Source of the DNA: Leptolyngbya sp. FACHB-8
GTDB taxonomy: Bacteria; Cyanobacteriota; Cyanobacteriia; Elainellales; Elainellaceae
Reading direction: 5' to 3'
DNA: 64,000 nt
NCBI RefSeq assembly: GCF_014695575.1
Contig: NZ_JACJOO010000084.1
Span: 124,001-188,000, forward strand
The notes under the pieces were generated by a model. That model searched no databases. It was not told where the DNA came from and saw only the letters and a list, made by a program, of their open reading frames with translations. The position numbers and the translations under genes are program-made. Below, one piece after another: positions 15,393 to 32,289 of this stretch (the first letter of the stretch is position 1; every line of letters starts with the position of its first letter).

Positions 15393-15465
15393 GCGCTCTT
15401 AGTTCAGTTGGTAGAACGCAGGTCTCCAAAACCTGATGTCGGGGGTTCGAGTCCTCCAGGGCGCG
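15393..15465 (+). tRNA. trnW: tRNA-Trp (anticodon CCA)
   Basis: A 73-base cloverleaf: acceptor arms GCGCTCT and AGGGCGC pair over seven bases with one G-T, the D arm holds AGTTCAGTTGGTAGAA, the anticodon loop is CTCCAAA with CCA, and the T arm contains GGTTCGAGTCC. No CCA end is encoded. The 3' half is the integration target of the element that follows, and integration leaves the tRNA intact. Confidence 0.96.
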
Positions 15466-15466
15466 T
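15424..15466 (+). other. attL, 43-bp core inside tRNA-Trp
   Basis: Begins CTCCAAAACCTGATGTCGGG and ends CAGGGCGCGT. It covers the anticodon loop, anticodon 3' stem, T arm and acceptor 3' strand and is identical to 29628-29670. CAGG also matches just upstream, with one mismatch in between. Confidence 0.92.
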
Positions 15467-15475
15467 TTAGATTAC

Positions 15476-15530
15476 AGCTATTCCATCTTGATTCTAAAGG
15501 GATTCAAGCATGGGATAGCTTTTGTTTTTT
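15476..15530 (+). terminator. terminator after tRNA-Trp
   Basis: An imperfect stem, AGCTATTCCATCTTGATTC against GATTCAAGCATGGGATAGCT, is followed by TTTGTTTTTT. It lies on the element side of attL, so the element appears to supply its own stop for the tRNA transcript. Confidence 0.7.
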
Positions 15531-15621
15531 GGCGCGTTTTAGAACGGGTTGGGTCATTTCCTGTGAGAAATAAGTGAGACGGGAACCATCACGGCGAATT
15601 AATCGCTAAGAGGTTTCTGTG

Positions 15622-16800
15622 ATGACCTACAAAGTTAAAAAGCCAAAACGGCGGGGTAATGTTTCCGTTGGGGCCAACAAGGGAGTTCTACGAATTACCT
15701 TTACCCGCCAGGAAGTAAGCCCATCAGGCGGGCTGTATCATCGCCGCTACTGGCTCCAATGTGGAATGCAAGACACACTCCACAATCGGCGGAAAGCGGA
15801 AAGGGTAGCCGAGCGGATTCAACGGGATTTGGCTTACCAGGAGTTTGATCCAACCCTTCAGATTTATAAGCTACTACTGGCAGGGGTAACACCGGAGGAA
15901 GTGGAGCGGGTAAAACGCCGCCAACTACCCGAACTGGCTGCCCTTTGGGAGGAATACACCCATTTCAAAGCGAAGACCCTGGAGGCATCCACCATCCAGC
16001 GGGATTATGGGCGGATCGCTCGAATCCTGGCAAAAATACCCGTTGAAGTGGATACGCCCCGTGAGGTTGAATTATGGCTTCTGGAGAACTACAGCACAGA
16101 GATTTCAAAACGAGTTCTAGAAGCTCTCTCTGGTTGTTTCAAGTGGGCTGTATCACGGGAACTGGCGGGTTTTAATCCGTTTCAAGCGATCGCCCAATCC
16201 ATTAAGCCAACCAAACGGGAAAGCGCTCGAACTCAACAGGCTTTCACCAACAGAGAACGGGCGGCGATCATGACAGCTTTTCGGGAACATCACCCAAAGT
16301 ATGCTCCTATGATCGAGTTTGCTTTTCTAACAGGATGCCGCCCTGAAGAACTGGCGGGGCTTCAGTGGAAACATATCACTGAAAAGCACATCCATTTCTG
16401 TGAAGCGTTACCTTCGGATCTGCGGATTCGGAAAAGCATTAAGACTCATACGCCCCGCCGTTTTCCAATTAATGGACAGCTATCCGCCGTTATTGCGGAG
16501 ATTCGGGGCGATCGCACACCCAACCCGGAAAGCCCGGTTTTCAGCTTCAAGTTAGGAACCGCCATTAATACCGCTAATTTCAATCGGCGGGTGTGGAACC
16601 CAGTTCTTCGAGATCTAATGAAGCGGAGTGAAATATCGCGGGTGTTGCCCTTAAATAACATTCGCCACACCACATGGACAGCCCTTCGAGAATCGGGCTT
16701 GCCTCCAGATGATATTGCTCGTTTGTTAGGCCATGATGCAGCCGTGGGATTGAAGCATTACCACGGCGATCGCCCTCTACCGGAGGTGCCAGAGCTATGA
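15622..16800 (+). CDS. int: tyrosine recombinase (integrase)
   Basis: Site-specific integrase of 392 residues that would catalyse recombination between the tRNA-Trp attB and the element. An N-terminal basic arm-binding region (KVKKPKRRGN) precedes a SAM-like core-binding domain near 110-190 and the catalytic domain. Catalytic Arg lies in FLTGCRPEELAGL, the beta-hairpin Lys in SIKTHTPRRF, the second Arg in NNIRHTTW, His in LLGHDAAV and the tyrosine in LKHYHGD. The first His of the HxxR box is Asn here. ATG 15622 has AGAGG eight bases upstream; GTG 15619 is possible. It begins 156 bases after the tRNA. Confidence 0.95.
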   Translation: MTYKVKKPKRRGNVSVGANKGVLRITFTRQEVSPSGGLYHRRYWLQCGMQDTLHNRRKAERVAERIQRDLAYQEFDPTLQIYKLLLAGVTPEEVERVKRRQLPELAALWEEYTHFKAKTLEASTIQRDYGRIARILAKIPVEVDTPREVELWLLENYSTEISKRVLEALSGCFKWAVSRELAGFNPFQAIAQSIKPTKRESARTQQAFTNRERAAIMTAFREHHPKYAPMIEFAFLTGCRPEELAGLQWKHITEKHIHFCEALPSDLRIRKSIKTHTPRRFPINGQLSAVIAEIRGDRTPNPESPVFSFKLGTAINTANFNRRVWNPVLRDLMKRSEISRVLPLNNIRHTTWTALRESGLPPDDIARLLGHDAAVGLKHYHGDRPLPEVPEL

Positions 16801-17043
16801 ACAGCAATTGCAGCTTTGGTCATTCTCTTTCAGTTCTTCAAACGTTCAGTAACTGCACGTTTGCGTTACCTAGCTTTAAAGGTTTCCGGCAATCGTTTCT
16901 TGCTGGAGGTGGCGGAGCTAAAAACAAGCATTACACCTCTGGTAATGCTACTTCGATTGTTCAAACTTCCAATTATTGGAAACTTCCGTTACCTAGCTTT
17001 ATAGGCTTTCAGCGATCGCCTTCTACCAGAGGTGCCAAAGCTA
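16765..17043 (+). repeat. degenerate tandem copies of the int 3' end
   Basis: The last 36 bases of int (16765-16800) recur in diverged form at 16888-16920 and 17010-17043, with the block CGATCGC..CTACC.GAGGTG.CA.AGCTA. The flanking CGTTACCTAGCTTTA also recurs (16864 and 16987), giving a period of about 122 bases. No conserved protein spans it, so it reads as decayed tandem duplication between int and the next gene. Confidence 0.7.
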
Positions 17044-17258
17044 TAAATACGGCGATCGCTCTCTTTCAAATATTTAGAAAGGTGTGGAACCTAAATAGTC
17101 AACGATTGACTATTTCCCATTTGCACGTTGGAGCAATTGAGTTGTGTGAAGCAAATTCTAACTTAGTTAGAAACTTCAAATCTCTATTACTACCAATTCT
17201 CAACCGTCTAGTTCTAACCCGTGGGAACCCTCCCCTCGCCAAATTGAGGGATTTCCCC

Positions 17259-17498
17259 ATGAGATTTATCAAGACCAAACAAGCGGCGGCCCTGGCGGGG
17301 GTTAGTCGAGAAACCCTTAAGCGGTTACGGCTGGAGGGGGAACTGATCGAGGGAGTTCACTGGCGGCGGTTGGGTTCCCGTGTCGTGCTTTTCGATCAAG
17401 ACCTTTTTGAACACTGGCTTGCTACTCGCAACTGCCCAGAATTGCACGAAGCCCGGATCGATGAATACCTGAAAAATCTCGAAATCAAGGGAGCCTAG
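17259..17498 (+). CDS. AlpA/MerR-like helix-turn-helix protein, probable excisionase
   Basis: A 79-residue DNA-binding protein. Residues 5-25 (TKQAAALAGVSRETLKRLR) form a winged-helix recognition unit of the AlpA/excisionase type, followed by the wing GVHWRRLGSRVVLFDQ. Such proteins direct excision or activate int in tRNA-linked islands. The frame is open upstream to 16797, but that stretch is repeat-derived (16765-17043) and looks non-coding, so ATG 17259 is chosen. It ends four bases before the primase gene, implying co-transcription. Confidence 0.75.
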   Translation: MRFIKTKQAAALAGVSRETLKRLRLEGELIEGVHWRRLGSRVVLFDQDLFEHWLATRNCPELHEARIDEYLKNLEIKGA

Positions 17499-17502
17499 CC
17501 CC

Positions 17503-20500
17503 ATGCCCACACAAAACAAAACCGCCCTGGCGGGGGCGGTCAACTCAAAGAATGAAAAATCTCTTGATTTAAGTGTATCCCGCCCTGCTGTTATTCCTCA
17601 AGATTCAAGTGTTCTGCCAATTGATTTGGAACAAGCCCGTATCCAACTGAAGCTTTTAGGTTACTCGGATGATGAAACGGTCTTTTTGCGGAAGCTCAAA
17701 CGGAAGCGAATGACGGATACACGAGCAAAAGAATTAGGGGTATATCCTCAGAATCTTGAGGCAACGATCAGTACCTTGCCATCCATTCAAGACCCTTACA
17801 GAGGCATCTACTTTGTTGTAAACGGCGGCGGCCACAGTAAAAAAGATGTGGCTCATCCGAAAGCTGTTTTCTTTGAGTTTGACGATCGCCCACCTGAAGA
17901 TCAATTTCTAGTTTGGAGGGAATTTGGCTTGCCAGAACCCTCCTTACAGATCAAAACTCGGCATTCTGTCCATACCTTCTATGCGTTGGATGGTAGTTGT
18001 GATCCAAAGGATTGGGAGGATTTCCAGGAAGACCTTAATGCTTATCTTGGTTCTGACCAAACTATTAAGGAACCGTGCCGATTAATGCGGTTGGCTGGAA
18101 GTTGGCATTTAGAGGAAGGTTTAGAGCCTACACGCTGTGACATCTTCCACCAATCTGAAGCCCGCTATCGTTTTGAGGAATTGCGATCGCTCATTCCAGC
18201 ACGGACAACCATAGAAACGGCAACTGCCCATCATCCTAAAACGCATCTATCGCAAATGTTACGGGAACAAATTCTTCCCCGCTTATCCCCTGAACAGGCG
18301 TTTACCTGGAGCGGCCACAACTGGCAAGGTGATAAGGCTAAAGGCAAGCTTCGAGGTTGTTGCCCGTGGCATGAATCTAAATCAGGAACCGCTTTTTACA
18401 CAGATCTGAAAGACGGCATTTGGGTGTGGCGTTGCCCGTCCTGTGGGTTCGGCGGTACTGCCCTGGAGTATCGCGATCGCATTCAAGCTGGTGATGGAAA
18501 GCCACGGGGGCCGAAATTCGTTGCTTTAGTTGAGGAATTAGCCAGGGATGCGGGGGTTAGTCTCCCAGACCACGCGCCGCCAGGTGCTAACCAGAATACT
18601 GGGGAAGATGAAGGCGATCGCCCTGAATCCAAGGAACATGAATCTGTCAATGGGAAAGCCCCGCCAGTAGCGAACCTTTTGATAGACCTGGCTACCTGTG
18701 CAGAGTATTGGGTTTCTCCTGATCGAACTGTTTACGCTGATGTGCTGATCCGTGATGTTCGGCAAACGTTACCAATCCGAAAAAAGCCTTTCAAAACCTG
18801 GCTTTTAGGTTCTTTGTATGACACACACAAGCGGGTAGTTGGTTCAGAAACCTTGAATCAGGTGTTATCGGTGCTGGAGTGGAAAGCTATCTCGAAGGGC
18901 GATCACCGTGAGGTTGCTTTGAGATTGGCTAAACACGAAGGGCTAATTTACTTTGACTTGGGGCGGTCGGATTGGAAAACCGTAGAAATTAGCCCTGGCG
19001 GCTGGGGGCTAATTGACTCAAAGGATTGCCCCGTGCGATTTATTCGCCCCGATACCCTGCTGGAATGCCCAATTCCTGAACGGGGCGGGAACCTGGAGGA
19101 ATTGCGGGAATTTTTAGGGTTAGAGGGGGAACCGTGGGTGCTGGTTGCCTCATGGCTCTTATATGCCTACTTCCCCCTTTACTCTCACCCAATCCTGATC
19201 TGTCATGGGGAACAGGGAGCAGGAAAAACTAGCACCGCCAAATTTTTGAAGCGTCTTGTGGATCCCGGAAAAGCTCCCCTCATGCCGAAGATTGCAGATT
19301 TACGGGATCTGGCTATCCAATGTCGAAACCGTTGGGTGCTGGCATTCGATAACCTAAGTGGCCTATCGCCTGAAAGCTCGGATGCCCTTTGTCGTATTGC
19401 TACGGGGGGCGGCTTTTCTACCCGAACCCTTTACGCTGACGACGAAGAAACCGTTTCCGAATTCCTACGCCCACTAATTCTGACTGGGATTGATTCCTTA
19501 GCCAACCGTCCAGACCTACTCGATCGCTCCCTATTGGTGAACTTACCTCGTATCTCTGAGGAGCGGCGGCAAACAGAGGAAGAGAGGGAGAAGGCGATCG
19601 CCGCTGCTCTACCCCGTTTGTTAGGTGCTGTCTTCACGGCCCTTTCCCAAACATTGGGGCGGTTGCCTTCCATATCCCTAGAGCGGTTGCCCCGAATGGC
19701 AGATTTTGCTCGTTTTGCTGTGGCTGCTGAACCTGCATTGGGGCTGGAGCCAGGTTCTTTTCTAAAGGCGTATCAAGGCAATCAGAATGAAGCGACAGAG
19801 CTATCGCTGGAAGCGTCGCCAGTAGCCACGGCGATCCGGGAACTGATGGATGGACGTGATAAATGGTACGGGTTAGCGAAAGACCTATTTAAGGAACTGG
19901 CGGGTGATGGAAGTAAAGTAGGTTTTCCGAAAGCGGCTCACGTTCTCAGCCGTAGTCTCCCCCGTTATACACCCGCCCTTAGAGACGCGGGAATTGAGGT
20001 TGTGTCACATCCCAAAATTGGGAAAGGCCGCCCGATAGAGATTCGCTGGATAGACGGAAAGGGAAAAGTAGCGTCACAAGCGTCACAAGCGTCACCAAAG
20101 GGTAAAAATGCTTGCCCTGAAAGCGTTTCTGCTAGTGATGCTAATTCCCGGAGTAGTGATGCTATTTCTTCCGCCCCCCCTGAAGCGTCACCCAACGGTG
20201 ACTCTATTTCTCAGCCACTTATCGAAGCGTCACCTAATCCGGAAATAGCATCACAACTTGGAATCCTCTCTGAGCAAGGGTTTCAAGAGGTTAATGATGC
20301 TAGTGACGCTTATGATGCTTCAAAAGCTACCCAGTCTAGGCCGCTTTATGAGGTTGGGGAATATGTCATAACCCCATCAGGTTTTGGAGTCATAGCAGAT
20401 CTTCTAGAGGATGACAGGGCAGCCGTTCATCTGGAGCGCCATAACGAAATCCGTCCTATCCCCATCCGAATGTTGAGAAAAGCCGATAGGGATAAGCCAA

Positions 20501-20514
20501 CCTTACCCTGCTGA
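17503..20514 (+). CDS. primase-helicase replication protein
   Basis: A 1003-residue replication protein. Residues about 85-210 look like an archaeo-eukaryotic-type or RepB-like primase region (KTRHSVHTFYALDG, CRLMRLAGSWH). About 285-330 is a CHC2-type zinc finger with cysteines in GCCPWHES and RCPSCGFGG. About 560-720 is a helicase P-loop module: Walker A GEQGAGKTSTAKF and Walker B LAFDNLSGL. The C-terminal 150 residues are a low-complexity Ala-Ser-Pro-Asp linker and a short beta domain (VGEYVITPSGFGVI). It should let the element replicate autonomously after excision. The linker DNA holds iteron-like octamers. Confidence 0.85.
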   Translation: MPTQNKTALAGAVNSKNEKSLDLSVSRPAVIPQDSSVLPIDLEQARIQLKLLGYSDDETVFLRKLKRKRMTDTRAKELGVYPQNLEATISTLPSIQDPYRGIYFVVNGGGHSKKDVAHPKAVFFEFDDRPPEDQFLVWREFGLPEPSLQIKTRHSVHTFYALDGSCDPKDWEDFQEDLNAYLGSDQTIKEPCRLMRLAGSWHLEEGLEPTRCDIFHQSEARYRFEELRSLIPARTTIETATAHHPKTHLSQMLREQILPRLSPEQAFTWSGHNWQGDKAKGKLRGCCPWHESKSGTAFYTDLKDGIWVWRCPSCGFGGTALEYRDRIQAGDGKPRGPKFVALVEELARDAGVSLPDHAPPGANQNTGEDEGDRPESKEHESVNGKAPPVANLLIDLATCAEYWVSPDRTVYADVLIRDVRQTLPIRKKPFKTWLLGSLYDTHKRVVGSETLNQVLSVLEWKAISKGDHREVALRLAKHEGLIYFDLGRSDWKTVEISPGGWGLIDSKDCPVRFIRPDTLLECPIPERGGNLEELREFLGLEGEPWVLVASWLLYAYFPLYSHPILICHGEQGAGKTSTAKFLKRLVDPGKAPLMPKIADLRDLAIQCRNRWVLAFDNLSGLSPESSDALCRIATGGGFSTRTLYADDEETVSEFLRPLILTGIDSLANRPDLLDRSLLVNLPRISEERRQTEEEREKAIAAALPRLLGAVFTALSQTLGRLPSISLERLPRMADFARFAVAAEPALGLEPGSFLKAYQGNQNEATELSLEASPVATAIRELMDGRDKWYGLAKDLFKELAGDGSKVGFPKAAHVLSRSLPRYTPALRDAGIEVVSHPKIGKGRPIEIRWIDGKGKVASQASQASPKGKNACPESVSASDANSRSSDAISSAPPEASPNGDSISQPLIEASPNPEIASQLGILSEQGFQEVNDASDAYDASKATQSRPLYEVGEYVITPSGFGVIADLLEDDRAAVHLERHNEIRPIPIRMLRKADRDKPTLPC
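20070..20310 (+). repeat. iteron-like octamer cluster inside the primase gene
   Basis: AGCGTCAC occurs at 20070, 20079 and 20088 (9-base period), 20184 and 20226, with variant AGCATCAC at 20247. The reverse complement form GTGAYGCT occurs at 20135, 20156 and 20303. Both orientations encode different residues (Ala-Ser against Ser-Asp-Ala), so the motif is kept at DNA level. This suits a replication origin next to its own initiator gene. A low-complexity protein linker is the alternative. Confidence 0.5.
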
Positions 20515-20601
20515 TTTCTCTAACCTCTTGGCGGTGGTTCAACCAGTGTTCTGGATGTTACCGCCGCCAGTTACCCAACGAACAAAAAGAGAGGATCACC
20601 T

Positions 20602-21519
20602 ATGACCGATCGTGCTGAAATTAGCCGCCGCAATGGAGCATTATCCTGTGGCCCCGTGACAGAACGGGGAAAGATGATTGCCTCAAAAAATGCCACGACT
20701 CATGGGTTATTAGCCCGTAAACCGCCGCTATTGGTAACGGAAGACCTATCCAGCTTTGAAGGATTGGTTCAGGGCTTGGTAGACCACTATCAGCCAGAAA
20801 GCCCAATCGAGCATTTTTTGATTCAGCAAACAGCAATGGGGATGTTGAAGCAGCATCGCTTGTGGGCTGTAGAAGCGGCGATCGCTAACATCGAAATTCT
20901 AAAAGCTCAAAAGGCTTTACAGTTTCCTGATCACGTTACTTCTCCAGATGTGGATCTCTCAGCAGATTTAGCTGCTTTCTCAGAGAAGCGCACACCCATC
21001 AATGTTGTGTTGCGGAAGGAAGCTAACACCCTGGCAAGGTTGATTAAGGCTTTGAGCAATGCCCTGGAGGAAAGCGAGAAATTAGGGGAGAAAAAGACCC
21101 TGGCAGCTTTTCGGGAATCTCTTAAATACAACTACTTCCACGAGGATCGGGCGGCAGCGGTCTGGAGCTATCAGGACTCCTTTGAAGCATGGTTAGAAAA
21201 TGCTTGGAACCAGAAGCGGAATGGTCGTGTTGCAGATTTTCAGGAAGCGATCGCCCGTGCTACCCGATTGGTCGAACTGGCACGGGTGCGAATCTCTGAG
21301 ATTTTGCAACGGTTGAAAGACCTAGCGGCTTTAGAAGAGGGCATTCAGCAGGCACAAACAATGAGCCAGGGCATCCAGAACCCGAACCTGTATCTTCGAT
21401 ACCAGCAGGCTATTAACCGGGATCTGTACGAGGCTATTGATCGACTGGATGAACTTCAGGAACGGAAAAATAAGGGTTTTCTGGGTTCGTTTGGTAAAAT
21501 TGCCCCTTCTGAGAACTAG
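20602..21519 (+). CDS. element-encoded helical protein of unknown function
   Basis: A 305-residue, mostly helical, soluble protein. Its N-terminus carries RRNGALSCGPVTERGK and NATTHGLLA, matching a motif (NAxxSTGPxTxxGKxxSxxNAxxHGL) seen at the start of many phage and mobile-element proteins of unknown role. The remainder is long helices rich in Ala, Glu, Arg and Gln, coiled-coil-like. GAGAGGATC precedes the ATG. It follows the primase by 87 bases on the same strand. I cannot assign a function; a replication accessory or DNA-binding role is guesswork. Confidence 0.7.
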   Translation: MTDRAEISRRNGALSCGPVTERGKMIASKNATTHGLLARKPPLLVTEDLSSFEGLVQGLVDHYQPESPIEHFLIQQTAMGMLKQHRLWAVEAAIANIEILKAQKALQFPDHVTSPDVDLSADLAAFSEKRTPINVVLRKEANTLARLIKALSNALEESEKLGEKKTLAAFRESLKYNYFHEDRAAAVWSYQDSFEAWLENAWNQKRNGRVADFQEAIARATRLVELARVRISEILQRLKDLAALEEGIQQAQTMSQGIQNPNLYLRYQQAINRDLYEAIDRLDELQERKNKGFLGSFGKIAPSEN

Positions 21520-21548
21520 AGGTTGGTGAATCAAGGGGGCGATCGCTG

Positions 21549-21944
21549 TCAGTGAATTTCATTTACTTGCGAGCGATAACGTTGGGCAACCACTACACCT
21601 TCAGGTGTAAGCCGAATTTTTTTATATCTAAAGCCAGGAGGGGAAGAACCCTTGCCCCAGAACGAGGAAGGCGTGTCTAAAGCGTAGCGTGGCTCTATCA
21701 ACCCTTCTTTTTCAAGCTTTCTGATTGCACGGTGTAGGGAGATATTCTCAGAACGAGTAATTTCCAGACCAAACACATACTCTCCTACATCTCGGAAATC
21801 ATGCCATTCTGGATAGTGGAAAAGAACTTGATCAGGCTGCCCCGGTTCCTGGAACACAAAAGCTTCTCCCTTAAACCATTTCTCGTGGTTGTCACCCATA
21901 AACTCCAGCACCTTACGCTGGAGTTTTCCATGCCCTTTACTCAT
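21549..21944 (-). CDS. small winged-helix regulator-like protein
   Basis: A 131-residue basic protein. ISLHRAIRKLEKEGLIEPR has the form of a recognition helix and turn of a winged helix, followed by a wing-like KKIRLTPEGVVVAQRY. The N-terminus (KLQRKVLEFM) is a plausible first helix. It is antisense to the replication genes, and its start codon lies inside a 17-bp palindrome (21943-21982), a typical layout for an autoregulated repressor. Inference: it controls itself and perhaps the genes to its right. Family not identified. Confidence 0.65.
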   Translation of the reverse strand: MSKGHGKLQRKVLEFMGDNHEKWFKGEAFVFQEPGQPDQVLFHYPEWHDFRDVGEYVFGLEITRSENISLHRAIRKLEKEGLIEPRYALDTPSSFWGKGSSPPGFRYKKIRLTPEGVVVAQRYRSQVNEIH

Positions 21945-21982
21945 AAGTGTTGAAAAGTCTAGCGGGACTTTTCAACACTTAT
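21943..21982. promoter_or_regulatory. 17-bp palindrome over a start codon, candidate operator
   Basis: Arms 21943-21959 and 21966-21982 (ATAAGTGTTGAAAAGTC) match perfectly around TAGCGG. The left arm overlaps the ATG of the winged-helix gene, so binding there or an RNA hairpin there would shut off that gene. Confidence 0.55.
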
Positions 21983-22083
21983 AACCTGAAAAATCTCAAC
22001 TTACGTAGGCAGAGCGACAAAAGGGGGAAAATCAGCAGACCTCGTTTTGATGCTGCAAGCTCTAGCCAGTCTCATCTATTGAC

Positions 22084-22129
22084 GTGTTGTGTCAGCAAAA
22101 ACCATACTTGAAAAGTAGTGACACAACAC
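22084..22129. promoter_or_regulatory. 11-bp inverted repeat upstream of a small gene
   Basis: GTGTTGTGTCA (22084-22094) and its complement (22119-22129) flank 24 bases and end 10 bases before the ATG at 22140. The position suits an operator or a leader hairpin that hides the ribosome site. Confidence 0.45.
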
Positions 22130-22139
22130 TCTGATCCTT

Positions 22140-22499
22140 ATGGATTACGCCACCGCCGCTGCCCGAAAAGCTGAGTTAGAGGGAGCGATCGCAACTTTTA
22201 AGCAAGACCTGGAGCAATACAACGGGGAAGCCTACCGTGGGTGCTGGCTGGATTCTGTGAAGGATCGGGCGGGCAAAAGGAGCTACAGCCGCCTACGGTG
22301 GTTTAAGCCCGGTGAAGGTGGCAAAAAGGGCTGTAAGACCTTACGGGGGGAGCAAGTAGCGGAAGCAACGGCGGCGATCGTCCTCTGGCAAGACCTGGAG
22401 CAGAAGGAATCGGAATTATTGGAGGTTAATTGTCACTTAGCAGATCTACGGTTGTTGGCCGCTCGTTACGGGTTAGAAGTTCCCCTAAAACAAGCTTGA
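22140..22499 (+). CDS. small helical element protein
   Basis: A 119-residue protein with two long helices (residues 3-30 and 75-110) around a basic, Gly- and Lys-rich middle (RLRWFKPGEGGKKGCKTLRG). The pattern resembles small cyanobacterial proteins with a basic loop between coiled coils, possibly binding nucleic acid. No motif is diagnostic. An inverted repeat lies directly upstream. It converges on the endonuclease gene at 22524. Confidence 0.6.
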   Translation: MDYATAAARKAELEGAIATFKQDLEQYNGEAYRGCWLDSVKDRAGKRSYSRLRWFKPGEGGKKGCKTLRGEQVAEATAAIVLWQDLEQKESELLEVNCHLADLRLLAARYGLEVPLKQA

Positions 22500-22523
22500 T
22501 AAGCTACAAATAAGAATTTTGCA

Positions 22524-23561
22524 TTATGCATCATCATCTATAAGATGCACACAAACTCTCAACGTATCCCTCCCCATCTGTTTAAGTTGTTTCAAAAACT
22601 CTATAAATCTCACGACTTCCCACTTCTTAACAGGCTGGAAATTTAATTCCTCTACTACCTCTACCTCTCCCTTTTCTATTTGTTCAACTAATTGCATAGC
22701 AAATTCATAGCCATAATCATTGTAAACTCCCATCCAATGCTCAATTTGATCAAGTTTTAAGCGAAAATGTCCCTTCCTCAGATTCTTCGCATTTTCTGCA
22801 AGTTCTCTCTGAATTTGTTGATGAATAATTTCAGATCTATTCGCCAGATAGTAGTCTAATTTTTCATTGACTTCAGGACGGTTTAATCCCCTCAATGAAG
22901 CTATTATGTATTCCTCATTATCCCGCTCTGTATAAGGAATACAAATCAAATCAATACCGTGCTTTTTACAGATTTCATATTTAAGAGCATCATTAAGTTG
23001 AACTTCCTCAAGTGTTCTATGTTTGTGATGAATTTCGACTTCCTGATAGTGATATTCACCTTGATACTCAAACGCAAGCAGTAGCTCTTTACTGTATCCA
23101 TCTAATTCAAGCCTATTACCTTCTACTACCAGCCATTTTGGTCTAGATGTGCTAAATTTTTCACCCAAAATTCTCTCAAAAGTTTTACGAACCTCGTTTT
23201 CTGATTTCTTTTTACCCTTTTTGATGTCAGTTCTTGCCCATCCAAGATGCTCAAGTGTGCAGTTATAAGCATTAGAGGGTTTAGGTGGAAATCTGGAAGG
23301 AAGTTGTCCAGTTTCCAGTAATTCCTGATACTGTTTAAGGCTGGTTATTCCATGCTTTTTACAATATTCTTTAAAGTCCGGAACTGATACCCACAGTATT
23401 TCACCCCATGTTGTTCCTAAAGCTTGAGAAGGTTTCGCAGGAAAATTTTTAGGAAGCTTGCCATCCTTAAATGCTTTTTCATAGCTTTCCCTTAAGAGCA
23501 AATTATGCTTATGGCAAAAATCAGAAATTTCGTCCTTTGTTGCCCATTCTTTCTTAGCCAT
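22524..23561 (-). CDS. PD-(D/E)XK endonuclease with N-terminal repeats
   Basis: A 345-residue nuclease-like protein. Residues 1-110 hold about two copies of a 45-50-residue repeat with WxxILWVSVPDFKEYCKKHG and LPSRFPPKPSNAY, like the repeats of phage and mobile proteins that recognise DNA. From about 118 a restriction-fold domain is seen: helix SENEVRKTFERILG, then ELDGY, AFEYQGEYHY and NDALKYEICKKHGIDLICIPY, giving the E, D, ExQ and later Lys positions of Vsr-like or homing-type nucleases. It is AT-richer than its neighbours, which hints at separate acquisition. A role as homing or element-defence nuclease is inferred. Confidence 0.75.
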   Translation of the reverse strand: MAKKEWATKDEISDFCHKHNLLLRESYEKAFKDGKLPKNFPAKPSQALGTTWGEILWVSVPDFKEYCKKHGITSLKQYQELLETGQLPSRFPPKPSNAYNCTLEHLGWARTDIKKGKKKSENEVRKTFERILGEKFSTSRPKWLVVEGNRLELDGYSKELLLAFEYQGEYHYQEVEIHHKHRTLEEVQLNDALKYEICKKHGIDLICIPYTERDNEEYIIASLRGLNRPEVNEKLDYYLANRSEIIHQQIQRELAENAKNLRKGHFRLKLDQIEHWMGVYNDYGYEFAMQLVEQIEKGEVEVVEELNFQPVKKWEVVRFIEFLKQLKQMGRDTLRVCVHLIDDDA

Positions 23562-23682
23562 TGGGTTTTACGGAGAATGTTTTAAGTTTGATGTTGAGAG
23601 ATTTCCTAAACCAATAGATTTTCCGCTTCTACTGATTACACACTGCACCTACTTGCAGTCAACTTCCGGACTGATCCGTAGT

Positions 23683-23958
23683 ATGCCCCCAAATACCCTC
23701 GCGGCGATCGCCCTCCATGAATATCGCAGCAAAGAACTGGAGCAAAAGCAGTGGAGTATCATCTAACTCTACAACGCCTATCTTTATGAGCCAGCAAGCC
23801 AACTTTACAAACTTCATAAGAAGCTGGATGACCTTGTGATGCAAGCCTACGGCTTTACCTCTCAAGCCGACGTTATTGAAAAGCTTCTTGCCTTAAACTT
23901 GGAACTAGCGGCTAAAGAAGGACTTGAGGAACTTGTTGTTGGCCCGTGGGCACCGTAG
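23683..23958 (+). pseudogene. C-terminal remnant of a class I DNA methylase
   Basis: A 92-codon frame starts at ATG 23683 and is interrupted by TAA at 23764-23766. Its tail reads NAYLYEPASQLYKLHKKLD, VMQAYGF and LLALNLELAAKEG then VVGPWAP. I recognise this as the C-terminal end of large cyanobacterial type IIG-like adenine-specific methylases or restriction enzymes. Everything N-terminal, including the NPPY and SAM motifs, is missing. The element therefore once carried, or landed beside, a restriction-modification gene. Confidence 0.7.
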
Positions 23959-23967
23959 ATGCTAGTT

Positions 23968-24675
23968 TCAGCTTATATCCCCTTTGTTTAGAAAAGAGTC
24001 AAAAACTCGCTTGTCGTAAATACTAACTGATTCAATTTCGGAAGTAGGAAGAACAACCTGAAAATCATCAATACTAATGCCTTCAAATTGCTCAGGATTT
24101 TCTTCAATTTGTTTATATACAGAGGTATACTCTGTCGTTATTTCAAGTTGTTTAGTTTCTACTTTCCGATAGCCAGAAAACTGAGGCCAAATTAGTATAA
24201 ATTCTTCCTGATCTTGGCTATCATTCAGTTTTGTTACAAAGCCAATATAGACTTTTCCACTACGTAAAGTAATAGACACTTGTTTGGTTTCAATAAATGC
24301 TTTGGCTAAGAGAACCTGGAGCGGGCCGCCAAACTTCCTAGCATAGTCAATGGCTAAAGATTCCTTATCAGTTTGAAAGACGTTTAAGATTCTGCCACAT
24401 ACACTACCTAGCAAAAAAGCTAATAGTGAAACATTCAAATATGGATAACTAGACAATGGGCTAGCATCGAGTAATTGTTGAATAGGTGGGAAGGCAAGTT
24501 TTATCGATTGAGCCAAAAAAATAGCTACTGCAAGCAAAACAATTCCTGCAATAGCTGAGTTAAAAAATAGACGATAGCCCGACCATTGCCGAGCTAAGTA
24601 TCGGGTGACGAACCATTGAGTTACAAGGATGTAACCTCCCAACAAGGGCAAAAATAGTTCATTTAGCCCAAGCAC
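23968..24675 (-). CDS. membrane protein of unknown function with cytoplasmic beta domain
   Basis: A 235-residue protein with three likely membrane segments at about 8-26, 38-58 and 80-98 (LFLPLLGGYILVTQWFV, AGIVLLAVAIFLA, LLAFLLGSVCGRIL). A soluble C-terminal half follows, with RSGKVYIGFVTKLNDSQDQEEF and FSGYRKVETKQLEITTEY. It resembles a family of bacterial membrane proteins sometimes grouped as DUF6338, but I am not certain. It forms a two-gene minus-strand unit with the 62-residue protein upstream (10-base gap), which suggests joint function as element cargo. Confidence 0.7.
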   Translation of the reverse strand: MLGLNELFLPLLGGYILVTQWFVTRYLARQWSGYRLFFNSAIAGIVLLAVAIFLAQSIKLAFPPIQQLLDASPLSSYPYLNVSLLAFLLGSVCGRILNVFQTDKESLAIDYARKFGGPLQVLLAKAFIETKQVSITLRSGKVYIGFVTKLNDSQDQEEFILIWPQFSGYRKVETKQLEITTEYTSVYKQIEENPEQFEGISIDDFQVVLPTSEIESVSIYDKRVFDSFLNKGDIS

Positions 24676-24685
24676 CTAGCTTCCT

Positions 24686-24874
24686 CTACTTATCACGCAA
24701 ATTTTTCTTGATTTCGGACTGTCCAGCTTGACTTCTATAGATGTCTACTGGCCGCATATAAGGGGTTCCGTTATACGTAACTCTAATTTGAGGTTTAGAA
24801 GGGTTATGTTTTTCAGGCTCCCTACGGCTCTTATCAGAGCTACTAGAACCTTTATCAGATGGGACTTTGTCCAT
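24686..24874 (-). CDS. small hydrophilic protein paired with the membrane protein
   Basis: A 62-residue Ser-, Lys- and Pro-rich protein; the first 25 residues look disordered and the C-terminal part reads VTYNGTPYMRPVDIYRSQAG. It lies 10 bases upstream of the membrane protein gene on the same strand. The ordered tail and tight spacing support a real gene, but no homologous family is known to me. Confidence 0.6.
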   Translation of the reverse strand: MDKVPSDKGSSSSDKSRREPEKHNPSKPQIRVTYNGTPYMRPVDIYRSQAGQSEIKKNLRDK

Positions 24875-25191
24875 CGTTTTAGAAAGTTAAGGGAATATCC
24901 CTATATTAGGACAAGACATTCTCTGTCCCTCAGAGAAAAAATAAGATGCACAAAGCCTTTACAAAAAACAGCTAGCCATCTCGCCTAGCTTGCCTGGTTA
25001 CTCATTAGCGATCAAGAAAAATCCCTAGAAGCTTTGTAGGTAAAGCTTCTAGGGATTTTAGGTTAAATATCATCTAGCTCAGAAAATAACGAGATTTTAT
25101 GGGTTTCAATCTATCCGAGCTGACACATCCCACGTACAGTTAAGTCTCCTTCTATGCCGCTGCTGTAGTATGCCATTTGTCAATGGCCCTA
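24875..25191. other. intergenic inside the element
   Basis: About 320 bases without a gene, holding a strong hairpin at 25020-25057. The rest shows no further structure. Confidence 0.5.
25020..25057. terminator. bidirectional terminator hairpin
   Basis: AATCCCTAGAAGCTTT (25020-25035) pairs with 25042-25057 around a 6-base loop. T-rich tails follow on both strands, the longer one on minus, so it likely ends the minus-strand RHH gene transcript. Confidence 0.65.
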
Positions 25192-25398
25192 TCACTCCTT
25201 CCCCTTTTCGGGGTTCTCTGAAGGCAATTCCCCGCTAGCTTCCGCCCGTGCGATCTCTTCGGCCAATACGGCTTCAACAAGGTTGGACAAGCTCCTGAAC
25301 CGTAGATCGGCCAACCTCTCCAGCTTTTGCTTCATTTCCTGGCTGCAATAGGCCACAATTCGGGCTTTGTCCGTTGCCACGTCGCCAAATACGCTCAT
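25192..25398 (-). CDS. ribbon-helix-helix DNA-binding protein
   Basis: A 68-residue protein: the beta strand ARIVAYCS is followed by helices EMKQKLERLADLR and LSNLVEAVLAEEIARA, the layout of CopG/Arc-type repressors, with an acidic tail. ATG 25398 is chosen because the ribbon begins soon after; an upstream in-frame start at 25431 adds a non-conserved stretch. It is divergent from the 25583 operon. The 185-base gap contains a 19-bp palindrome (25527-25545) and GTGTGCACAC (25489-25498), which suggests it represses one or both promoters. Confidence 0.8.
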   Translation of the reverse strand: MSVFGDVATDKARIVAYCSQEMKQKLERLADLRFRSLSNLVEAVLAEEIARAEASGELPSENPEKGKE

Positions 25399-25526
25399 AA
25401 CAATACCTCTCAGGGTAAACGATAGGGCCATTCCTACCCCTAAGTGTTCCCATAGTAGTTTTATTCCAGTAATTTAGTGTTGCTAAAGTGTGCACACCTT
25501 GACTATGATGTGCCCACGTACGAAGC

Positions 25527-25545
25527 CGCTATGAAATTCATAGCG
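25527..25545. promoter_or_regulatory. 19-bp palindrome, candidate RHH operator
   Basis: CGCTATGAA-A-TTCATAGCG is perfect over nine bases per arm and lies between the divergent RHH gene and the ATPase operon. Three ACGAA-containing direct repeats surround it (near 25518, 25553 and 25563). Confidence 0.5.
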
Positions 25546-25582
25546 ATCGCCATACGAACCACATACGAAGGAGCTACAAGCT

Positions 25583-26182
25583 ATGCGGAATCACACATTT
25601 CGGTCAATCTCGGAAAGCATGGGGCGGGATAAGCGTACCGTCCAAGCCTGGTATCAGCGGGCAAAAGACGAGCATGGAGAACTGGGAGAACTCATCAGTG
25701 GAACTCGGTTCTTCGACGATGGGGAGCGAAAAAAGCTGATTGCCTATGCAGGAGAAAAGCCCCTTCGGGCAACCAACCCCGCCCCCCGCTTCACCGTCGA
25801 AATGGGCAACCATGCCGCCGAAAAAACGCTCCAGGTTGGAGCAACATCCACAAGCCTGGAGCAATTCCGAACCGATCGCATCCGTCAACAACTGGCGAAC
25901 CCTAAAGAATTTATGACCAACCTGAACGGGTTCCTGGATCAAATCGAAACGGGTATTGATGCCGCCGAAAAAGCCCAGGAAGCGGAATTGCTCCAGACCC
26001 GTGAAATTAAACAGACAGCCCAAAAGCGGTTGGGGCAATTCCGCCGCCGTGTAGACGAGTACCGAATCAAATCCGATTTAATGGCGCTTCTCCAAAACGC
26101 TGACCTGGAGGAAGTAGAAGACATCGCCGCCGAACTCAACACCTTGGGAAAGCCCGCTGTCGAACCATCGCCGCAATCCTGA
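25583..26182 (+). CDS. helix-turn-helix protein with possible -1 frameshifted membrane tail
   Basis: First gene of the right-hand operon. Residues 1-25 (RNHTFRSISESMGRDKRTVQ) read as a helix-turn-helix of the Trp-repressor/resolvase tail type. The centre is helical and the C-terminal half a coiled coil (about 115-190). The zero-frame product is 199 residues. At codons 189-190 the DNA reads ttG-GGA-AAG (26146-26152), the classic -1 slippery heptamer. A slip would swap the last nine residues for 40 others, including a membrane segment, and stop at 26272-26274 immediately before the next ATG. The role is unknown; a DNA-linked, membrane-tethered form is an inference. Confidence 0.7.
   Translation: MRNHTFRSISESMGRDKRTVQAWYQRAKDEHGELGELISGTRFFDDGERKKLIAYAGEKPLRATNPAPRFTVEMGNHAAEKTLQVGATSTSLEQFRTDRIRQQLANPKEFMTNLNGFLDQIETGIDAAEKAQEAELLQTREIKQTAQKRLGQFRRRVDEYRIKSDLMALLQNADLEEVEDIAAELNTLGKPAVEPSPQS
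26146..26152 (+). promoter_or_regulatory. candidate -1 ribosomal frameshift site GGGAAAG
   Basis: GGGAAAG sits as X-XXY-YYZ relative to the 25583 reading frame, the same heptamer used in phage lambda gpG/gpGT. The -1 frame is then open from 26152 to the TAA at 26272, with no start codon of its own, and encodes TIAAILIALLTLGAIAALA then a Pro-rich tail. A possible stem (GATCGCCC at 26181 against GGGCGATC near 26200) lies about 30 bases downstream, further away than usual. Confidence 0.5.
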
Positions 26183-26274
26183 TCGCCCTGCTGACCTTGG
26201 GGGCGATCGCCGCCCTTGCCACGTTCCCGCCCCAACCTATACACCCCACACCCACAAAGGAGGGCATAGGCTAA

Positions 26275-26502
26275 ATGTCCCAAGAATTCACCCATTACCC
26301 TGCCCACGAGGATCAAACCGCTCCCTTCGGCTGGAAAGCGGAAAGCGGTTTATACTTCCGCCCCGATTGGGGCGATCGTCTAATCGAGATCAACGGGGTT
26401 CCCCATATCGCCGTTAGCAGATTTCTGGAGGGAGCCATCGAAGACACAACCGCCCGCCCCGAATTTCTCACCCTGGCGGATTTGCAAACCTTGGGAACCT
26501 GA
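26275..26502 (+). CDS. small element protein, 75 residues
   Basis: Starts with ATG directly after the TAA of the -1 frame of the preceding gene. AAAGGAGGG lies about 12 bases upstream, so translation is probably coupled. The sequence (GLYFRPDWGDRLIEINGVPH, RFLEGAIED) suggests a compact alpha/beta protein. No family recognised. Part of the element operon. Confidence 0.65.
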   Translation: MSQEFTHYPAHEDQTAPFGWKAESGLYFRPDWGDRLIEINGVPHIAVSRFLEGAIEDTTARPEFLTLADLQTLGT

Positions 26503-26602
26503 ACCAGATTCCTGCTGAAAAAAATTGATAGGGCGGCGATCGCTCGAAGTTGGTAGCCACGGCGATCGCCCCTTGTCCCCCACATAAGGAGACATCACAA
26601 TC

Positions 26603-27127
26603 ATGCAACAAACGGACGGAAAAACGATCCAACCAGACCTAACCACCGACCAAAAGGGCGGTGAAATTGTCCTTAGTTCCGAAGAATCGATCCAGCTTGC
26701 CAGAGAAACCTATGAACTGATACCCGTGGGCGATCGCTACCCCGAACTATTCCAGGAGCTTCAAGACCTGGCGGAGGGGGGCGAATATGAAACCCTGCTG
26801 GAGGTGCAAAACCTGTATCTGGTTCAGGTCACAGATAACCGGGTAGACAACAGCACCCACACCACAACCCTGAACTATCAGCCCTTCACTTTCATCGACA
26901 ATTCCCAGCACACCAACATTTTCATTACGGACTCCAGCACCCATAACAGCCACAATCGCAAACACCACACCAGCACCCAAACCACAGGGGGAAGCGGCGA
27001 TGAAGACCTGATCCTAAAAGTCTCAATCGCCCTCTTTACGGCTGTCTTTATCACCGCCCTCTACAGCTATTGGGTAGAACGCTTTTCGCTACCGCCCCGC
27101 CCCATGCAGCAATACCAGCAGTTTTAA
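26603..27127 (+). CDS. tail-anchored Asn/Thr/His-rich protein
   Basis: A 174-residue protein preceded by AAGGAGA. Residues 25-80 are helical (ESIQLARETYELIPVGDRY). Residues 85-130 are strikingly rich in Asn, Thr and His (DNSTHTTTLN, SSTHNSHNRKHHTS), and a single membrane segment lies near the C-terminus (LKVSIALFTAVFITALYSYW). It sits 10 bases before the ATPase gene, so the two products may interact at the membrane. No family recognised. Confidence 0.7.
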   Translation: MQQTDGKTIQPDLTTDQKGGEIVLSSEESIQLARETYELIPVGDRYPELFQELQDLAEGGEYETLLEVQNLYLVQVTDNRVDNSTHTTTLNYQPFTFIDNSQHTNIFITDSSTHNSHNRKHHTSTQTTGGSGDEDLILKVSIALFTAVFITALYSYWVERFSLPPRPMQQYQQF

Positions 27128-27137
27128 GGGGGGAGCC

Positions 27138-28472
27138 ATGAAAGACTTTAATGTTCCGCTCCTGATTCGGGATGCGGCGATCGGCTTCGGTATTGGGGTT
27201 CTAATCATGCTTGCATGGGAAAACATTACCCAACCCCGCCCCGTTGCCGTTCCGCCACTACCGCCCCCCGGTGCTATCCTCCAACCATCAGGGCAAGGGC
27301 CACAACAACCCGCCGCCCCCATCCAACCGCCTGCCTATCAGCCGATGAACACGGGCTTCAACCCTGGAGATTATCTGGTGTGGGCGATCGCTAGTGTGGC
27401 CGCCTACCTTGGGATCCGCCATGATCTTAAGAAACTGGAGCCAGCCACCGCCGCCAATGTGGCCGCTCTCCTGCCACCCGTTCCCCCTTCCTCTGGATCT
27501 GTTGTGTCAGCATCTAACACACAACCCAATCAACTGACAAAACAAAAGGCTAAAGGATCCACCCTCACGGCGATCGCCCCGTGGGAAGAGCGAAAAGCCG
27601 CCCTCTGGCAACTGCTGGAGGAAGAACTACCCGCTGTGCTGCAACTGCTGGAGGCAACCCCGATCCTGGCGGTTGGCCCACAAAGGAGCGGGAAAACATC
27701 CTTTGCCGTGGCCCTGGCACTCACCCGCCAGGTGCTATTGGGCTATGGAGCGGAAGTGGCAACCCCACACCAGCACGATACATTCCCACCCTCCTTTGGA
27801 GTATGGCGGGAACTAGAGGGAGTACAGGATCGGATCCATGCTTATTTTGACCGCATAGGGCAGGGCGATCGCTCCCCCATATCCCTGCTTTTCGATGAAC
27901 TCACCAGCTATGCCGCCGCCGAACTGGAGGGAGCCGATCGCCTTATGCTGTCTTTCCTCAGTGAGAGCCAAAAGCACGAAAAGTTTGTGATTGGCTTATC
28001 CCACGGCATCACAAACGCCACATTAGGCGGGGCGAATGGAACCGCCCAAATGAGACAGCAGGGGCTAATTATTGTCGAGAGATCTTGTCAAATGAGCAAG
28101 ACAGGGCGGCGATCGCCTAACCCGCTCATTCGGATCACCGGACTATCAGAAGCCCCGCTTGAATTCGTCTTACCCGATTGGTTTCATGCCGATCATCTCC
28201 TGGAATTTTTTCCAGAGCTACAGGAAGGGCGATCGCCTTCACCAGATGCCAGTTCTCCAGAATTCCCCCGTGAAGTTTTAGAAGCGGTCTACACCGCCGC
28301 TAAAAAAAGAAATCGCCCCGTATCTGCCCGTGATATTCAACAGGCAAGATTACCTGACCTGGATGGATATAGCGCTGACCAAATTCGAGCGGTATTTCTA
28401 AGTCTTGAACGGATGGGGCGAGGCAAAACGGATGGGTTAGGAAGCGGCATCACCTACGCCCCCAACCCCTAA
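27138..28472 (+). CDS. membrane-anchored P-loop ATPase
   Basis: A 444-residue ATPase. An N-terminal hydrophobic helix at about 12-27 and a second at about 85-100 flank a Pro-rich segment. The ATPase core has Walker A VGPQRSGKTSFAVALAL near 175 and Walker B SLLFDELTSYAA near 250. A C-terminal winged-helix-like part ends it (EVLEAVYTAAKK, VSARDIQQA). The layout recalls FtsK/HerA/TraD-type DNA-moving ATPases or plasmid ATPases, but no relaxase is present. It may move or segregate element DNA; that is inference. Confidence 0.75.
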   Translation: MKDFNVPLLIRDAAIGFGIGVLIMLAWENITQPRPVAVPPLPPPGAILQPSGQGPQQPAAPIQPPAYQPMNTGFNPGDYLVWAIASVAAYLGIRHDLKKLEPATAANVAALLPPVPPSSGSVVSASNTQPNQLTKQKAKGSTLTAIAPWEERKAALWQLLEEELPAVLQLLEATPILAVGPQRSGKTSFAVALALTRQVLLGYGAEVATPHQHDTFPPSFGVWRELEGVQDRIHAYFDRIGQGDRSPISLLFDELTSYAAAELEGADRLMLSFLSESQKHEKFVIGLSHGITNATLGGANGTAQMRQQGLIIVERSCQMSKTGRRSPNPLIRITGLSEAPLEFVLPDWFHADHLLEFFPELQEGRSPSPDASSPEFPREVLEAVYTAAKKRNRPVSARDIQQARLPDLDGYSADQIRAVFLSLERMGRGKTDGLGSGITYAPNP

Positions 28473-28493
28473 AAACTCAACACCCAACAAAAC

Positions 28494-28526
28494 GCCCCCA
28501 ACCTCTACCCAACAAAGGTTGGGGGC
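28494..28526. terminator. hairpin in a CCAAC-rich spacer
   Basis: GCCCCCAACCT (28494-28504) pairs with 28516-28526. The whole 28473-28634 spacer repeats ACCCAACA- and TTGGG-type words many times. It could be a terminator or attenuator, or a protein-binding array. Confidence 0.5.
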
Positions 28527-28634
28527 CATCCAACACCCGTTGGGCTGTTGGGGCGATCGGGGCATCCACCAACCAGACATCCACCAGATACCCAACGGTC
28601 TACCCAACAACTTTCCAACCTGGAGTAATGACCT

Positions 28635-29258
28635 ATGACGCTATTAAGAACCCCGCCCGAAAAGGTTAGAGCTTTAGCCTATGCTTGTGTCGGTATTGGC
28701 TTTTTCTTGTCAGCAGTAAATGTCTACTTCACTGAAAGGTATTTTGCACAACAAATACAGGGAACGGCGGGTAATGCTGCCTATCTTGGAACATGGGCAA
28801 TTTCTATTCTGATAGCGGTCTATGAATCTGCTTTGATTAGCATCTTGTTAAGCCCGGACGAATTACCCCTAACTTTTCTTCCTTCTCAACTGGAGCCGCC
28901 ACCAGGGTTCCCCCGATGGGTGCCTACAGCTATAAAATGGGTTCTCCTAATCGGGGCTTTTTTGCTTACATGGTTCATCTACCGAACCGATTGGATCAGT
29001 ACTACGGGAGCACTAGGAATTGCTAATCCTGAACCCCGCCGCATAGCTACCGTGGCCCTTGTCTTCGGCGGCGAAATTTCTGCCGTGTTGGCCCACTTAC
29101 TCCACGCGATCGGCAAAACTGGACAGCTCAACACCCGAGTTTTTTGGGAAGGGCTTCGGAGTGCTGAGAAACAAACTCCAGCGATCGCCGCCAGTAACCC
29201 CGCCGCTTCCCCCGTATCCTCCAAACTTCGAGACACCCTAAAGGCGAAAAAGAAATGA
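28635..29258 (+). CDS. four-helix membrane protein
   Basis: A 207-residue integral membrane protein with likely helices at about 12-30, 48-70, 98-116 and 135-155 (YACVGIGFFLSAVNVYF, AISILIAVYESALISILL, WVLLIGAFLLTWFIY) and a basic C-terminus. It overlaps the next gene by four bases (ATGA), indicating translational coupling. The same type recurs in cyanobacterial mobile elements as far as I can tell, but I cannot name a family. Confidence 0.7.
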   Translation: MTLLRTPPEKVRALAYACVGIGFFLSAVNVYFTERYFAQQIQGTAGNAAYLGTWAISILIAVYESALISILLSPDELPLTFLPSQLEPPPGFPRWVPTAIKWVLLIGAFLLTWFIYRTDWISTTGALGIANPEPRRIATVALVFGGEISAVLAHLLHAIGKTGQLNTRVFWEGLRSAEKQTPAIAASNPAASPVSSKLRDTLKAKKK

Positions 29259-29500
29259 AGCGGATACCAGAGGATGAGTTGAACACGTTAGAGGTTCCCC
29301 TATGGAGAATGGCGATCGCCTTCATGGGTACAATCGCCCGCTCCCCCTACTCCCCTATCATGGGTGCCCTTCTGGCGGGGTTGGGTGTGGTGTTACCTTT
29401 TCTGGCAGATATATTAGGTTGGCTCCTACTGGCGGCGGGTACATTAATCTTTACAATTGGTCTGATCGGGAAAGCCTACCGACTGACCGGAGGGCGATAG
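29255..29500 (+). CDS. small two-helix membrane protein
   Basis: An 81-residue protein with two hydrophobic helices at about 35-52 and 55-72 (GALLAGLGVVLPFLADILGW, LLAAGTLIFTIGLIG). Its start overlaps the stop of the preceding membrane protein. It is the last gene of the element; attR lies 128 bases downstream. Confidence 0.7.
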   Translation: MKRIPEDELNTLEVPLWRMAIAFMGTIARSPYSPIMGALLAGLGVVLPFLADILGWLLLAAGTLIFTIGLIGKAYRLTGGR

Positions 29501-29627
29501 CAGATCCCCATCCAAACTGCCCAAAAAGCCAAAAATTGACATTCTCTGAGAGTTAAGTGAGAATCGCTTCATAACCAATCGCTAGGATCCTGTCTCTATC
29601 GTGTTTCTCGCTATCCAGTCTACAGGA

Positions 29628-29670
29628 CTCCAAAACCTGATGTCGGGGGTTCGAGTCCTCCAGGGCGCGT
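29628..29670 (+). other. attR, 43-bp tRNA-Trp 3' copy
   Basis: Identical to 15424-15466. No acceptor 5' strand or D arm precedes it, so it is not a second tRNA gene. It marks the right end of the element. Confidence 0.92.
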
Positions 29671-29703: not shown

Positions 29704-29742
29704 AGAAGAGAGGCGGGGTTTCACTCCGCCTCTCTTCTTTTG
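29704..29742 (+). terminator. terminator beyond attR
   Basis: AGAAGAGAGGCGG (29704-29716) pairs with 29726-29738 and is followed by TTTT. It is probably the original tRNA-Trp terminator. A near copy of the stem is found at 30562-30602. Confidence 0.7.
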
Positions 29743-30561: not shown

Positions 30562-30602
30562 AAAAGGAGAGAGGCGGGGCGAAACCCTGCCTCTCTCCTT
30601 TT
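30562..30602. terminator. 18-bp hairpin, terminator-like
   Basis: Left arm 30562-30579 and right arm 30585-30602 pair with one G-T. A and T runs at the ends allow termination in both directions. Its core AGAGAGGCGGGG matches the terminator at 29704. Confidence 0.65.
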
Positions 30603-30717
30603 GAGATAAGTGCCTCCTGCTGCAGCTTATTGCAAACGGCTTGTGGATGTGCTGGCTATGTTAACTGCAGGCTGTCAAAGCATTTTTTTGAGCAGTTCAG
30701 ACCTGGCGCTGCTGGTG

Positions 30718-31971: not shown

Positions 31972-32018
31972 CCGTGTACAGGATACAGATGGCTAAAAGG
32001 GTCAAATTTTTTGTTAGT

Positions 32019-32142
32019 AACCTCAGTTCGGGATAAGCTGAAGTGCTCATTTTGGCGTGCGCAAAGCGCACGCCAAAATGAGCGTTTTCGAGTGCCGCGC
32101 AATGCGCGGCACTCGAAAACGCCCTTCACTCAAACTGAGGTT
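32019..32142. mobile_element. MITE-like element with two internal hairpins
   Basis: Ends AACCTCAGTT (32019-32028) and AACTGAGGTT (32133-32142) are exact inverted repeats. Inside are two perfect 17-bp hairpins (32045-32083 and 32084-32120). The second shares TTCGAGTGCCRCGC and GCGGCACTC with a hairpin at 56080-56124, and both follow TTCGGG-TAAG. No reading frame inside. Confidence 0.6.
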
Positions 32143-32289
32143 TAGTAGGGTGAAACCCTACTAAAAAAAATTGGGTTTTCCATACAGCTTCTAGGCTGAG
32201 ATGTTCTCGTGTTACACAACAGTCGGAAGATGGATTAAATTGCAACCACAGACATAAATGTAGTGAGAAATGTAGAGCTTGCCTTAGGG

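Follow-up and report, generated by a model that had tools for sequence, protein, structure and literature searches.

An integrative, probably plasmid-like element at a cyanobacterial tRNA-Trp gene carries a membrane-ATPase operon, a candidate DNA-translocation module

Introduction

In actinomycete integrative and conjugative elements (AICEs), DNA is moved in double-stranded form by a single FtsK-like protein (PMC3218068). In a survey of 424 cyanobacterial plasmids, 88% were predicted to be immobile under the current model (PMC8600333). The element described here lies in a 64,000-nucleotide stretch of DNA (the window) from contig NZ_JACJOO010000084.1 of Leptolyngbya sp. FACHB-8. It was examined over the span 15424–29670, which an earlier note had proposed as an integrative, replicating element at a tRNA-Trp gene. 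The element is integrated at trnW and is probably plasmid-like, with a membrane-ATPase operon as a candidate DNA-translocation module. The operon is a widespread plasmid module that has no named function in the libraries searched. Its conservation on cyanobacterial plasmids and tRNA elements makes it a concrete candidate for their movement or maintenance. Coordinates refer to the window, and genes and attachment repeats are on the plus strand unless stated otherwise.

Results

The attachment gene trnW, encoding tRNA-Trp (CCA), is intact (15393–15465), was identified by ARAGORN and by Rfam RF00005 with 67 bits, and is the sole tRNA-Trp call. Its 3' part constitutes the direct repeat attL (15424–15466), which is identical at 43 of 43 positions to attR (29628–29670), as the earlier note had described. 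From the anticodon loop, the repeat extends to the 3' end of the tRNA; this part of tRNA genes is the usual class of site for tyrosine integrases. When one mismatch is allowed, the repeat extends to 48 bp, from 15419 and 29623. The two copies are 14,204 bp apart from start to start and form the sole direct repeat longer than 17 bp at comparable spacing in the region. The likelihood that 43 identical bases across ~16 kb arose by chance is negligible. The element is present as a single copy in the host genome. For the comparison with an empty rplS-trnW site proposed in the earlier note, the sister species G035 retains rplS-trnW, with trnW unoccupied and no integrase after it, but similarity and synteny stop directly after the tRNA and the exact empty site was not recovered. 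The right flank had no syntenic match within the order in the empty-site alignment.

The same trnW is used by a different element in the related genome G020. There, a different integrase gene follows the tRNA (L110:1941), and a second copy of the site, matching at 42 of 43 positions, is located on another contig after a row of phage-like genes (L111:8319).

The left half of the element encodes integration and replication functions. The tyrosine integrase of 393 residues (15619–16800; PF00589 1.1e-14, phrog_1 1.3e-36) starts 153 bp downstream of the tRNA-end repeat, which bears out its reported position next to the tRNA. It is followed by a gene for an Xis/AlpA-like helix-turn-helix (HTH) protein (16797–17498), which matches the excisionase family phrog_66 (8e-7) and, just below the cut-off, HTH_17 (1.2e-5; 25.8 bits against a cut-off of 27, AlpA-type profiles PF05930/PF12728). 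The HTH domain corresponds to residues ~153–222 of the open reading frame (ORF), indicating that the true start of the gene is probably internal. Homologues of this protein hold the same place beside int in genomes G061, G058, and G094. The replicase of 1003 residues (17503–20514) combines an archaeo-eukaryotic primase (AEP) domain related to that of S-2L PrimPol (6zp9, 1.7e-14), a weak CHC2-like zinc motif, and a helicase. Identities of the helicase half are 49% to its counterpart in G061, 40% to a protein of Methanothrix plasmid pH6Ac, and 32–40% to proteins encoded on plasmids of Stanieria and Methylobacterium. Three 9-bp copies of AGCGTCACA at 20070–20095 look iteron-like by eye; they are coding and specify a SQASQAS linker in the replicase frame. 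The gene o305 (20602–21519), a conserved partner downstream of the replicase, has homologues in G061 (5.4e-37) and on plasmids of Picosynechococcus. The attachment repeats, the integrase, and the plasmid-type replicase together indicate an integrative plasmid-like element, and the Xis-like protein and the AEP primase-helicase are consistent with the integrative, replicating nature proposed earlier.

The core of the element has relatives both on plasmids and at other tRNA genes. In G061, a complete genome from another family, 68-bp repeats 14.7 kb apart delimit a tRNA-Thr element with int, xis, replicase, and o305 in the same order. Its cargo consists of HsdR, HsdM, HsdS, Fic, and a PIN/DUF433 pair, and the N-terminus of its primase differs from that in the window. 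Similar int-xis-primase blocks occur beside tRNA-Gly and tRNA-Thr genes in G058 and G094. The replicase and o305 are also neighbors on free plasmids of Picosynechococcus, the 18.4-kb plasmid of PCC 8807 and pAQ3, the former of which carries the G061-type DUF433 pair and Type I restriction genes. The core is therefore common to plasmids and tRNA elements, with an exchangeable cargo slot. Within the host genome, the plasmid-like contig C47, which contains ParA and ParM, encodes an o305 homologue with 38% identity, two homologues of o75 described below, and a parallel operon of transmembrane (TM) proteins and an ATPase, and contig C27 encodes an o305 homologue with 40% identity together with a primase. 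According to the earlier note, related genomes carrying the interior genes without direct repeats or tRNA attachment would speak against the element. Such genes do occur on plasmids that have no tRNA repeats; since further copies are bounded by tRNA genes, this indicates plasmid kinship rather than falsity of the element.

A further tRNA-bounded locus was observed in G273, a cyanobacterium with a small genome, where 48-bp repeats 8.9 kb apart flank a tRNA-Pro element with an AEP primase and two integrase-type genes nearby (L171). It is possibly a relative of the satellite or tycheposon type.

The right half of the element is occupied by the membrane-ATPase operon. Its first gene, o199 (25583–26182), encodes a protein with weak HTH matches and a coil; an HTH-coil gene holds the equivalent position on host contig C47 and on contig L273. 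It is followed by o75 (26275–26502), a small protein common to contig C47 (7.5e-12, 1.1e-9), o174 with a single C-terminal TM helix (26603–27127), the ATPase of 444 residues (27138–28472), o207 with four TM helices (28635–29258), and o81 with two (29255–29500). The presence of this operon and of the primase-helicase agrees with the earlier description. The ATPase was characterized by predicted models, fold matches, and family searches. The model contains TM helices at residues 6–31 and 76–100, a confident RecA-fold motor at 149–357, and a C-terminal winged helix at ~378–440; motor and wing modelled alone reach a pLDDT of 83. The motor model aligns with FtsK (2iut; Z 14.1, 4.0 Å, 205 residues), the conjugation coupling protein TcpA (6o1x; Z 13.7, 3.7 Å, 194 residues), and EccC (4nh0; Z 13.4, 3.2 Å, 202 residues). 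These three give the longest alignments, and an FtsK/TcpA assignment is favoured on the basis of the model. Weak fold matches to Zot and A32-type proteins in BFVD were also obtained. However, a Zot or tailless-phage ATPase was rejected, since no capsid gene was detected in the element and the phage records searched contain no sequence relative of the ATPase.

The ATPase family is carried mainly by cyanobacterial plasmids. Relatives were found on 24 PLSDB plasmids with the window sequence as query and on 40 with a Nostoc member as query. The plasmids are mostly from Nostocales and are typed as mobilizable or non-mobilizable, none as conjugative; 25 of the 40 are typed as mobilizable, and a ParA control was dominated by other phyla. 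Among 386 sampled cyanobacterial genomes, 21 encode the ATPase, with the genome of the window counted. The operon is retained in nearly all of 44 loci, and on Nostocales contigs its order is HTH protein, two helical proteins, three-TM protein, and ATPase. Many relatives are near ParM-like genes. Neither the ATPase nor o305 has a relative among 50,697 phage records. Scans of IMG/VR with the single sequences of ATPase, primase, integrase, and o305 gave no match; a scan with the alignment of Nostocales ATPases matched two contigs. In the phylogenetic tree, the window ATPase forms a group (support 100/98, on long branches) with homologues encoded by the tRNA-Leu element of G094, a G023 contig of 344 kb, and a contig from IMG/VR.

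Two further carriers of the ATPase family are bounded by tRNA repeats. The G094 tRNA-Leu element is 18.3 kb long, has a broken repeat of ~150 bp, and encodes a primase of its own as well as a ParM-like protein. In G026, the operon is positioned between tRNA-Val repeats 59.3 kb apart (G026:C6, 2606325–2665673; L278, L045–L047, L276) and has the composition ParM-ATPase-M23-SLT. Another G026 contig, of 26 kb, encodes an ATPase of identical protein sequence, and ~5.7 kb of the tRNA-Val region are 82–96% identical to this contig, indicating that the block moved recently between G026 replicons. The possibility that G026:C6 and G026:C8 hold integrated and free forms of one plasmid was rejected, because only ~5.7 kb are common and C6 contains phage genes. 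A peptidoglycan hydrolase gene directly follows the ATPase in three related operons. On host contig C47 (L189:8184–11240), a TM-anchored protein with muramidase-like and M23 domains adjoins the membrane ATPase; the hydrolases in G026 are M23 and SLT with trypsin, and that in G247 is GH108. A peptidoglycan hydrolase is what an envelope-crossing machine would need.

Further genes lie between the core and the ATPase operon. They include, on the minus strand, those for a hypothetical protein of 131 residues (21549–21944; phrog_13846 0.0026), a homing-type endonuclease of 345 residues (22524–23561; phrog_559 6.6e-17, phrog_9084 2.6e-9), a protein of 235 residues with about three TM helices (23968–24675; phrog_3630 1.2e-29, a family of unknown function), a 62-residue ORF (24686–24874), and a CopG/Arc-like ribbon-helix-helix regulator (25192–25431; RHH_1 0.0059, phrog_3431 0.0037). 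A 119-residue ORF on the plus strand (22140–22499) matched no family. The endonuclease and the 235-residue protein appear to be cargo in the slot that holds the Type I restriction system in the G061 element. A perfect 17-bp hairpin is located upstream of the 131-residue gene (21943–21982), and a perfect 18-bp hairpin, a terminator or other cis site, separates the divergent gene blocks (25018–25059).

Outside the element, two similar long GC-rich hairpins of the AGGAGAGAGGCGGGG type (29704–29742 and 30565–30603; 79% identical, 861 bp apart) are positioned just beyond attR and are terminator-like. A partly palindromic repeat of ~130 bp (32017–32148) occurs at least seven more times in the genome with 94–96% identity, and related sequences are present in other genera of the family; it resembles a miniature inverted-repeat transposable element or similar dispersed repeat. 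Positions 52110–54482 encode a 790-residue protein with, as judged by eye, an N-terminal HTH and an apparent NACHT-type ATPase region.

Discussion

The organization of the element suggests how it may be propagated. The integrase and Xis would excise it by recombination of attL with attR, leaving trnW intact; the excised circle would replicate by its own primase-helicase and could re-integrate at trnW. The ATPase operon is most likely a DNA-translocation module, in which an FtsK/TcpA-like motor is predicted to be anchored by two TM helices. The winged helix of the ATPase could read a DNA site, and the small TM proteins may assist. The replicase-o305 half and the ATPase-operon half each belong to families carried on cyanobacterial plasmids, and the nearest kin of the element are plasmids and not phage satellites. 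The host genome yielded neither a PF01580 match nor a full-length coupling protein, and a type IV secretion system (T4SS) of the host itself is therefore unlikely to move the element.

Several observations weigh against a plasmid-like element with a translocation module. The ATPase has no match to PF01580 or any other Pfam family, and its likeness to FtsK is at the level of the fold. The motor model aligns with RecA (2zrf; Z 13.5, 3.5 Å, 177 residues) at a Z-score that ties those of FtsK and TcpA, and profile comparison by hhalign gave 1% for FtsK and 50% for VirD4-type proteins, against 70% between FtsK and VirD4. Neither clustered clt-like short repeats nor a peptidoglycan hydrolase gene were found in the element. 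The operon is absent from the G061 element and is thus dispensable for integration or replication. The G026 tRNA-Val region also contains terminase, portal, capsid, and tail-sheath genes, and is a prophage or composite.

Alternative explanations differ in how they account for the same genes. The satellite-like nature suggested earlier would resemble that of phage-inducible chromosomal minimalist islands (PICMIs): a helper phage would trigger excision through the AlpA-like HTH, the primase would amplify the DNA, and helper capsids would package it. The order of int, HTH_17, and primase and the defence-like slot after the primase are as in PICMIs (PMC10803314), trnW is shared with the G020 element and its phage-like genes, and the ATPase family reaches into the 59-kb G026 prophage or composite. 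However, scans of the element proteins against Pfam, PHROGs, NCBIfam, and PADLOC detected no relaxase, T4SS, terminase, capsid, or tail, upholding the earlier statement that relaxase and phage structural genes are missing, and those against Pfam and PHROGs detected no capsid-remodelling or packaging gene, Fis, or DUF3987/DUF5906. With the closest carriers of both halves being plasmids and the searched phage records devoid of ATPase and o305 relatives, a satellite is unlikely. Even less probable is that the element is an immobile chromosomal island, retained since an old integration because of its cargo, and that its ATPase operon serves partition, membrane anchoring, or defence instead of transfer. 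The ParM-like genes near many ATPase relatives would allow a role in maintenance, none of the putative transfer genes matches a curated family, and the genome holds one copy. Nevertheless, the intact frames of integrase, HTH, and replicase and the still-identical attachment repeats argue for recent activity, and a hydrolase beside related ATPases is unexpected for partition.

A stronger form of the plasmid-like interpretation is that the element is self-transmissible and of the AICE type, with double-stranded DNA moved by one FtsK-like motor and no relaxase. The shared modules are the integrase, Xis, a PrimPol-type replicase, a membrane motor that ends in a winged helix, and small TM proteins (PMC3218068). 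Opposed to these are the missing PF01580 match and clt-like repeats, the Gram-negative envelope that has to be crossed, and the restriction of AICEs so far to Actinomycetales (PMC3218068); self-transmission is accordingly doubtful. It is possible, as a tentative proposal, that the operon, present on dozens of plasmids of cyanobacteria as well as in some tRNA elements, is an undescribed DNA-transfer system. It would comprise an FtsK/TcpA-like membrane motor with small TM proteins as partners, joined in some copies by peptidoglycan hydrolases. If this were true, the relaxase-free element described here and cyanobacterial plasmids regarded as "immobile" could move between cells, and a relaxase-free, AICE-like layout would be placed outside Actinobacteria.

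Among known systems, AICEs of the pSAM2 type resemble the element in small size, tRNA site, int and xis, PrimPol-type replicase, and winged-helix membrane motor. AICEs are defined by a tyrosine or serine integrase, here represented by PF00589; a RepSA, RepAM, or Prim-Pol (PF09250) replicase, in place of which the element has an AEP related to S-2L PrimPol and no PF09250 match; an FtsK/SpoIIIE motor (PF01580), which the ATPase does not match; and an Actinomycetales host, whereas the related genomes and plasmids are cyanobacterial. Because of the motor profile and the host, the element is not filed as an AICE. It differs from T4SS-type integrative and conjugative or mobilizable elements in that no relaxase, VirB4, or VirD4 match was found in it. 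PICMIs share the integrase, the HTH_17 regulator (here below cut-off), the primase, and the cargo slot, but the element gave no DUF3987/DUF5906 primase or Fis (PF02954) match in Pfam scans and has no phage kin. The tycheposon-like character suggested earlier holds for the layout, which alone was compared: a tRNA-bounded element with a tyrosine recombinase, a core, and exchangeable cargo. The core of the window element has plasmid kinship. Small cyanobacterial plasmids and plasmid-like contigs (pAQ3, PCC 8807, C47, C27) contain ParA or ParM and no tRNA attachment repeats, whereas the element is without partition genes, but they share with it the replicase with o305 and the defence cargo. These relationships show that replication genes of plasmid type and defence cargo shuttle between circular plasmids and tRNA sites.

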